A DNA stretch of 64,000 bases from Methyloligella sp. GL2 (lineage in GTDB: Bacteria > Pseudomonadota > Alphaproteobacteria > Rhizobiales > Methyloligellaceae): contig NZ_CP054476.1 in assembly GCF_013341275.1 (NCBI RefSeq), positions 3,088,988 to 3,152,987 on the forward strand. Direction: 5' to 3'. This document shows positions 2,027 to 53,193 of this stretch, piece after piece (positions within the stretch are counted from its first letter, which is position 1; each line of letters opens with the position of its first letter). The position numbers were made by a program, and so were the translations under genes. Below the pieces are notes generated by a model. The model saw only the letters and a list, made by a program, of their open reading frames with translations. It did not search any database and was not told the origin of the DNA.

Positions 2027-2428
2027 CCCCACCCACCTTCGTCATGCCCGGACTTGATCCGGGCATCCATGCCGTGACCTATCGGTTGAGCTGGCGATAG
2101 AGATCGAACCACTCAGGGTTTTCTTTCTCGATCAGCGCGATCTTCCACTGGCGCGGCCATGACTTTATGGCCTTCTCCCGCTTGATCGCGCTCGCTGCGG
2201 TGGCGTGCTCTTCCATAAAGACGAGGCGCTTTACTTGATGCCGGTTCGTGAAATCGCTGAGACCTTCGCGATGCTCGAACGCGCGGCGCCGCAGATCGCT
2301 CGTAACGCCAGTGTAAAGCGTTCCGTTCTTGTGGCTGGCCAGGATATAGACAAAGAACGCCCTCATAAGTTGAGAGGTAACGGCATGGACCCCCGGGTCA
2401 AGCCCGGGGGTGACGAAGGTGGGTGGGG
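2027..2428. mobile_element. Putative GIY-YIG mini-element with 54-bp inverted repeats
   Basis: Bases 2027-2080 and 2375-2428 are inverted copies, 47 of 54 positions matching by hand alignment. The arms have exactly equal length and enclose a GIY-YIG nuclease gene (2079-2366) that fills the loop almost exactly. Each arm contains a family A hairpin unit. Four of the seven differences are paired: the left stem has tgcccgg/ccgggca and the right has cccccgg/ccggggg, so each hairpin keeps its own pairing. That the unit moves is inference; the structure is read directly. Confidence 0.55.
2079..2366 (-). CDS. Small GIY-YIG endonuclease-domain protein (COG2827-like)
   Basis: A 95-residue protein made of one GIY-YIG nuclease domain. 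It begins MRAFFVYIL and shows the two short motifs of the family (VYIL near residue 6, LYTGVT near residue 17), the Arg-rich LRRRAFEH helix, a KREKAIK motif and the IEKENPEW segment carrying the catalytic-type Glu and Asn. The ATG at 2366 was chosen because the frame upstream of it only translates the repeat arm. The stop codon overlaps the left repeat arm by two bases. Stand-alone proteins of this family are widespread and largely uncharacterised; the cellular role is unknown. Confidence 0.85.
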   Translation of the reverse strand: MRAFFVYILASHKNGTLYTGVTSDLRRRAFEHREGLSDFTNRHQVKRLVFMEEHATAASAIKREKAIKSWPRQWKIALIEKENPEWFDLYRQLNR

Positions 2429-8520: not shown

Positions 8521-8545
8521 CGGGAGGAGGTCTTACCTCCTCCCG
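8521..8545 (+). terminator. Strong hairpin after exaC
   Basis: A perfect 10-bp stem, cgggaggagg-tctta-cctcctcccg, starts 16 bp after the exaC stop. There is no long T-run, so it may act as a weak terminator or a 3' end stabiliser, reducing read-through to the DUF779 gene. Its right arm abuts the repeat doublet at 8544. Confidence 0.5.
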
Positions 8546-8667
8546 TCATTGCCGGGCTTGACCCGGCAATCCATGCCGTTTCATTGCCGCGTTCTCTGAC
8601 CATCGCGTGCCCCGGAGCACATCGACGGGTAACGGCGTGGATGCCCGGATCAAGTTCGGGCATGACG
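8544..8667. repeat. Inverted doublet, family A (TGCCGT subtype)
   Basis: The left unit cgtcattgccgggcttgac... ends ccatgccgt; the right unit begins acggcgtgg and ends gggcatgacg. About 50 bp of unrelated sequence separate the two. This is the same outward arrangement as the GIY-YIG element at 2027-2428 but with no gene in the loop. Confidence 0.8.
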
Positions 8668-40258: not shown

Positions 40259-40345
40259 CGTCATCGCCGGGCTTGACCCGGCGATCCAGAGCGGCAAGCT
40301 CCGAGATCGTAGCCCTGGATGCCCGGGTCAAGCCCGGGCATGACG
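40259..40345. repeat. Inverted doublet, family A (CCAG subtype)
   Basis: Left unit cgtcatcgccgggcttgac..., right unit ends gcccgggcatgacg; linker begins ccag and ends ctgg. Same arrangement as at 1919-2005. It lies between yidC and yihA. Confidence 0.8.
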
Positions 40346-46829: not shown

Positions 46830-47048
46830 ACCTCCCCCTAAAAGGGGGAGGTCGGCTTGGGGCTTCCCCCAAGCCGGGTGGGGGTCAAACGACGACCCTA
46901 AGCCAACATAAGCCGACCCCCTCCCAACCTCCCCCTTTTAGGGGGAGGGGTCAGTCCGTGCTCGCGTCCCACCACCTTCGTCGTGGAAGACTTCCGCATC
47001 TGCTGCGCGGTAACGGCGTGGATGCCCGGATCGAGTCCGGGCATGACG
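46830..47048. repeat. Family B doublet and a family A single unit
   Basis: The gap between murI and murJ has family B hairpins at 46830-46852 (acctcccccta/agggggaggt) and 46926-46950 (cctcccccttttagggggagg) facing each other, and a single family A unit at 47010-47048 (gtaacggcgtgg ... gggcatgacg). No gene. Confidence 0.75.
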
Positions 47049-53030: not shown

Positions 53031-53193
53031 CGTCATGCCCGGACCGCGCTCAAGTAGCGCCGAGCGCGATAGCGCATAGAAGAGGCCGGGCATCCACGCC
53101 GTTTCCGTGACGCAAGTTCAGCGCTTGCTAGCAGGGACCATTCGTTGCCGAGGGGTAACGGCATGGACCCCCGGGTCAAGCCCGGGGGTGACG
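53031..53193. repeat. Inverted doublet, family A (TGCCGT subtype), left arm interrupted
   Basis: The left unit starts cgtcatgcccgg but its loop is replaced by about 35 bp before ccgggcatccacgccgt; the right unit is gtaacggcatggacccccgggtcaagcccgggggtgacg, nearly identical to the right arm of the GIY-YIG element at 2375-2415. It fills most of the 341-bp gap between def and rmuC; the remaining 100 bp probably hold the rmuC promoter. Confidence 0.75.

Follow-up and report, generated by a model that had tools for sequence, protein, structure and literature searches.

A nuclease gene between inverted CGTC-tagged hairpins

The window that we analysed is a stretch of 64,000 nt from Methyloligella sp. 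GL2 (NZ_CP054476.1, positions 3,088,988-3,152,987, forward strand), in which a 95-codon GIY-YIG nuclease gene (2079-2366, reverse strand) is enclosed by two inverted arms (2027-2080 and 2375-2428). The arms are identical at 47 of 54 positions, against a maximum of 33 when the 1.5 kb around them was shuffled 100 times, and they lengthen to 60 nt at 85% in an inverted-repeat search. These results bear out the initial annotation, which had described an equal-armed 54-nt inverted repeat around a GIY-YIG gene whose stop codon runs two bases into one arm; the gene is complete, and the arm in question is the left one. The nuclease domain was identified as PF01541 (49.4 bits, E = 5.6e-13), and residues Y7, G15, Y18, G20, R28, H32, and E64 are invariant in an alignment of 16 homologues; among them, Y7, Y18, R28, H32, and E64 represent the active-site Y, Y, R, H/Y, and E of the GIY-YIG superfamily. 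This is the sole gene between the arms, and no Y1 HUH transposase gene accompanies it.

Each arm contains a hairpin composed of a CGTC tag, a 9-bp stem, a CTTGA loop, the second strand of the stem, and a tail, CCATGCCGT. At the 3' end of the gene, this CGTC REP occupies positions 2040-2066 on the forward strand (stem ATGCCCGGA) and is followed on the same strand by the inner tail CCATGCCGTGACC (2067-2079); at the 5' end, it occupies positions 2389-2415 on the reverse strand (stem ACCCCCGGG), and the inner tail was read from the repeat as CCATGCCGTTACC (2376-2388, reverse strand). Measured from tag to tag, the whole unit spans 376 bp (2040-2415, reverse strand). Six of the seven differences between the arms, rather than the four counted previously, are compensatory and alter three hairpin base pairs (2045/2065, 2046/2064, and 2052/2058), while the seventh (2076) falls on an unpaired base. 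The arm ends read GTC-ACCCC at the 5' end of the gene and GTC-ATG at its 3' end, and the same readings return in a number of homologues outside this genome (L007, L008, L009, L011, L036, L115, and L129). Judging from these recurrent ends, the two arms are not interchangeable and their ends do not drift freely.

Related elements and short dimers in the same genome

Five GIY-YIG genes are present in the genome, including one UvrC-like gene (a 647-codon frame) and one without REPs (L001). The remaining three are intact, small, and of the same group as the window gene, and all lie between inverted, outward-tagged CGTC REPs, the distance from tag to tag being 375, 376, and 376 bp. The two outside the window, L002 and L003, occupy unrelated loci and are 75% identical across approximately 380 bp, with the similarity stopping a few bases from the tags. 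A fourth, decayed element lies between sdhA-like and sdhB genes (G000:C1:486419-489532; L068, L331), where an internal deletion has removed most of the gene and fused the left REP to its C-terminal part; the sdhA-sdhB element is intact in two relatives.

The CGTC REP pattern has at least 167 matches in the genome, compared with none for a reversed control, and the repeats sit in short intergenic stretches. They have the features of the CGTC REP class, namely the CGTC tag, stems of 8-9 bp, loops of 4-5 nt, a CCA tail, high copy number, and an arrangement as dimers. Approximately 165 REPs, collected from stretches of the genome, were sorted into about 60 dimers, which form families of fixed span and fixed tail. 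Family A, with the same tail as the window element, comprises 11 short dimers of 124-129 bp (about 126 bp) in addition to the 376-bp element itself. Family B (tail CCATGAACAC; 8 dimers of 95-100 bp) matches the decayed sdh element, and family C (tail CCACG; 12 dimers of 83-95 bp) includes the L002 and L003 elements. Family D (tail CCAGRGC; 10 dimers of 87-88 bp) is an orphan, as no corresponding nuclease was found in the genome. Families A, B, and C thus have loops and inner tails in common with the window element, the sdh element, and L002/L003, respectively, and the last loop base separates families A and D from B and C almost perfectly (p = 6e-31). The family A pattern was matched 51 times in this genome and 39 times in G005, where a close relative of the nuclease is encoded; in G001, a genome of the same genus that is without a family A nuclease, it was matched 3 times. 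Across 14 hand-picked genomes, family A counts were higher with the nuclease than without it (p = 0.008), a comparison that is suggestive only.

Further repeats of these families occur within the window. A family D dimer of 87 bp (1919-2005) adjoins the nuclease element and a second lies at 40259-40345; other dimers of this family were observed at L255, L260, L265, and L273. A 124-bp family A dimer (8544-8667) has the tails and loops of the window element, and from this resemblance we read it as a probable non-autonomous relative, while lone family A REPs were read at 47022-47048 and 53167-53193, both on the reverse strand. At 2457-2524, a REP is broken by about 30 bases (tttatgctcgggccagcgaagctggccccgggt), and the insert holds a short palindrome. 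Elsewhere in the genome, dimers of yet another type, 77-81 bp long and built on 8-bp stems (ATACCGGC-AACA and ATTCCGGC-GTCA), were often found beside CCACG dimers, and occur without a nuclease at L312, L313, L336, L303, L322, and L307.

Association of the nuclease with REPs in other genomes

A scan of genomes from one order, from the phylum, and across phyla yielded 174 strong homologues. In 113 of these, an inverted repeat brackets the gene at a score that was reached in 0.5% of same-locus control windows. Tagged hairpins flank the gene on both sides in 61 of the 174 and in none of 2486 controls, and on at least one side in 109, compared with 1.8% of controls. The expectation of the initial annotation that inverted palindromes would flank such genes elsewhere was thus realised, and homologues from Omnitrophota and Patescibacteria, among others, have the same arrangement. 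The median tag-to-tag span over the 61 loci with both REPs is again 376 bp. Approximately 60 of the 174 homologues have no detectable inverted pair. When the tag was reversed or turned inward, none of the 174 had hairpins on both sides, which excludes an artefact of tag orientation.

Since CGTC REPs are common and are found in short intergenic stretches, ordinary intergenic repeats or terminators might have piled up by chance around small accessory genes. This is hardly credible, given the outward tags and the near-constant span, and chance accumulation or co-location of REPs with the gene is refuted by the same-locus controls. In addition, four UPF0213-type GIY-YIG genes, a small control sample, had no REP flanks.

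The association extends to whole genomes, as the nuclease was found in 35 of 45 genomes rich in CGTC REPs and in 45 of 254 other genomes (odds 16 times higher; p = 5e-15). Genomes rich in REPs and devoid of the nuclease also exist, including G003 with 49 REPs and G051 with 62, indicating that REPs persist without the nuclease and ruling out their strict dependence on it. The G051 genome is complete, its dimers are approximately 180 bp apart, and its sole GIY-YIG gene is UvrC-like. In the window's order, the nuclease is present in 36 of 61 genomes, in up to several copies per genome. The contexts of two individual homologues were also observed: in Azospirillum lipoferum AZO_p3 (L280), a REP-flanked nuclease gene splits sufB from sufC, and in Planktothrix agardhii p1 (L279), a homologue has an MmeI-type restriction gene on one side and drmA of DISARM on the other.

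Empty sites in close relatives

Empty sites, which the initial annotation had proposed to seek in close relatives, were found for the window, L002, L003, and sdhA-sdhB elements. At the window site, the same-genus genome G001 has a 159-bp spacer without REPs in place of 809 bp here. None of the five relatives searched has an element at the L003 site, which lies between ubiB-like and coaBC-like genes, and in G001 the aligned flanks of this site are only 12 bp apart. The L002 element is likewise absent from 5 of 5 relatives searched, and most relatives have short, REP-free spacers between sdhA and sdhB. The exact junction is unreadable at the present divergence of the compared relatives. Among about 60 dimers, no target-site duplication above chance was detected, and the element in this respect does not resemble an IS element; outside the tag, loosely conserved bases, roughly CYCCKT, precede CGTC.

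These sites bear on the possibility of homing, whereby the nuclease would cut REP-containing sites and gene conversion would carry it into REPs already present, in place of integration at virgin sites. In favour of homing, GIY-YIG domains are known in homing enzymes, and several REPs form a mosaic at the window site. However, the empty window and L003 sites of G001 contain no REP, nor do the clean sdhA-sdhB spacers, and we consider homing very improbable. No intron or intein is apparent at the nuclease gene.

Co-divergence of nuclease and repeat, and selection on the protein

By their loops, the flanking REPs divide into a CTTGA/T class, which has 9-bp stems, and a GNAN class, which has 8-bp stems, and the distribution of these classes follows the nuclease tree. 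On this tree, which was built from few alignment columns and leaves many forks open, the loop class changes 7 times, compared with 33 times in shuffles, and within the window's order it changes 2 times, compared with 10.7. In the CTTG class, stem distance also tracks tree distance (Mantel rho = 0.33, p = 0.001). Because the signal is retained inside one order, host taxonomy is ruled out as the cause of this co-divergence.

Co-divergence also helps in weighing a scenario in which another enzyme spreads the REPs and a flanking pair carries the nuclease gene as a passenger, in the manner of a composite transposon. The REP-rich genomes without the nuclease, together with the orphan dimer families of the Methyloligella genome, would be explained by such an enzyme. 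However, one gene family would then be the passenger in many phyla, while the four UPF0213-type genes are without REPs, and neither the tracking of the nuclease tree by REP type nor the inner tails that differ by nuclease would be expected of passive cargo. We therefore regard a passenger gene as quite improbable.

A second GIY-YIG subgroup, with the C-terminal signature ERQ-K-W-SR-KK-ALI (L238, L069, L239, L071, L074, and L075), adjoins another palindrome family (CCTCA...TGAGG / CTCGAAGG), L238 having a strong inverted pair with a score of 32. This may be a separate nuclease-repeat pairing, and would suggest that the pairing of enzyme and repeat arose or diversified more than once.

Among ten homologue pairs with estimable dS, dN/dS ranges from 0.015 to 0.14, with the window gene at 0.10 against L007 and 0.14 against L008; dS was saturated in three pairs. 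Such low ratios indicate that the protein has been kept functional, and count against a merely decaying insertion. Strong purifying selection would also be consistent with a resident host enzyme of the Ssn type, which would cut single-stranded DNA at these repeats, using them as its marks, and thereby control DNA uptake or recombination, with mobility of the gene being incidental. Ssn of Neisseria, a member of the GIY-YIG family, reportedly cuts single-stranded repeats and modulates transformation, and the group includes a N. gonorrhoeae homologue (L274), a putative Ssn, with CGTC-type palindromes on both sides. Its protein shares 53% identity with that of the window gene and up to 76% with other members of the group. 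Conversely, the patchy presence of the nuclease in the order and its several copies per genome, the empty sites within one genus, the insertion of copies into operons (sdhA-sdhB and sufB-sufC), and the nuclease-specific dimer families are all unexpected for a plain host gene, and a host enzyme of this kind therefore appears unlikely to us. Separately, we observed that two chromosome-sized N. gonorrhoeae records of 2.17 Mb (NZ_CP119140.1 and NZ_CP119142.1) are filed as plasmids in the plasmid collection.

A proposed mechanism

We hypothesize that the window feature is an autonomous nuclease-REP element of 376 bp with short non-autonomous dimers, working much as a RAYT-REPIN system does by means of an unrelated enzyme, and we consider this reading probable. 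The element would be delimited by two inverse CGTC-REP hairpins with outward tags and an inner, family-specific tail, with one nuclease gene between them. The family A dimers of 124-129 bp would be its non-autonomous derivatives, equivalent to REPINs, while the two further nuclease elements and the decayed fourth have their own dimer families, one for L002/L003 and another for the sdh element.

Most likely, the nuclease would recognise its cognate REP in single-stranded, folded form, by tag, stem, loop, and tail. This is suggested by the tags facing outward, by the maintenance of the hairpin and of the loop, and by a tail that is specific to each enzyme, and it agrees with the cutting of single-stranded repeats reported for Ssn. 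Recognition could take place during replication or DNA uptake, whereupon the nuclease would cut within the REP. Starting from the cut ends, host repair or recombination might then copy the unit, with or without its gene, or join it to another site, a role that we assume for them. GIY-YIG enzymes hydrolyse DNA and are not known to join ends. This hydrolytic chemistry counts against an autonomous element, as do the missing target-site duplication, the REP-rich genomes without the nuclease, the orphan dimer types, and the approximately 60 homologues with no detectable inverted pair, which may reflect either decay or independence from REPs.

More generally, GIY-YIG nucleases could be the enzymes, missing until now, that mobilise the CGTC-REP superfamily. 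Autonomous elements and their derivatives would then spread because folded single strands are cut hydrolytically, and without a strand-transferring transposase. We judge the chances of this broader proposal to be evenly balanced.

Comparison with known systems

CGTC REPs reach copy numbers of up to hundreds in many bacteria. The superfamily was defined by Di Nocera, De Gregorio and Rocco in 2013, who found no dedicated transposase and did not settle how the repeats spread; that the enzyme has perhaps disappeared was one suggestion (PMC3733652). The repeats described here share with that superfamily the CGTC tag, a stem of 8-9 bp starting with AT, a loop of 4-5 nt, the CCA tail, the formation of heterodimers, and a distribution mostly among Alphaproteobacteria (PMC3733652). 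They differ in that the dimer encloses a GIY-YIG nuclease gene and that nucleases have their own dimer families. The nuclease is thus a strong candidate for the partner that these widespread bacterial hairpin repeats have long been missing, and with a conserved nuclease inside the element and a cognate dimer family, the question of what spreads CGTC REPs becomes directly testable.

Ssn, reportedly described in 2025 (Nat Commun), is the nearest known kind, being likewise a small GIY-YIG protein tied to a repeat of hundreds of copies, and a neisserial homologue belongs to the group. The repeat superfamily is already known, and for Ssn a GIY-YIG enzyme has reportedly been linked to a repeat. Set beside Ssn, cutting by the present nuclease is a prediction, and the element structure, the empty sites, and the non-autonomous dimers would be the additions of this analysis. 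Among the papers searched, there was no earlier link between GIY-YIG nucleases and CGTC REPs, and no fixed-border element, nuclease-specific dimer families, or empty sites. If our reading is correct, enzymes of the Ssn type, which are useful single-strand cutters, would be tied to readable targets, and the flanking hairpins would predict their specificity. UPF0213 proteins (PDB 1ywl, 1zg2) share the GIY-YIG domain and are distantly related (phmmer E = 0.0012), but the UPF0213-type genes that we examined are without the C-terminal signature [KR]E[KR]-x2-K-x3-R-x-WK and without REP flanks.

A parallel in organisation is the RAYT-REPIN system, in which an IS200/IS605-like TnpA-REP is likewise encoded by a single small gene, with inverted REPs and short non-autonomous dimers (PMC3116915, PMC2817692, PMC8266576). 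The initial annotation had proposed an autonomous element in which a GIY-YIG nuclease replaces the RAYT, and the arrangement fits this proposal; however, the palindromes are CGTC REPs rather than the GTAG repeats linked to RAYTs, and movement catalysed by the nuclease would still be a prediction. As RAYT-REPIN systems combine the GTAG tag with a Y1 HUH transposase, and both the enzyme and the tag are unrelated here, the window element is not a member of the RAYT-REPIN family; it would instead, if our reading is correct, represent a second, independently evolved solution to the same arrangement.
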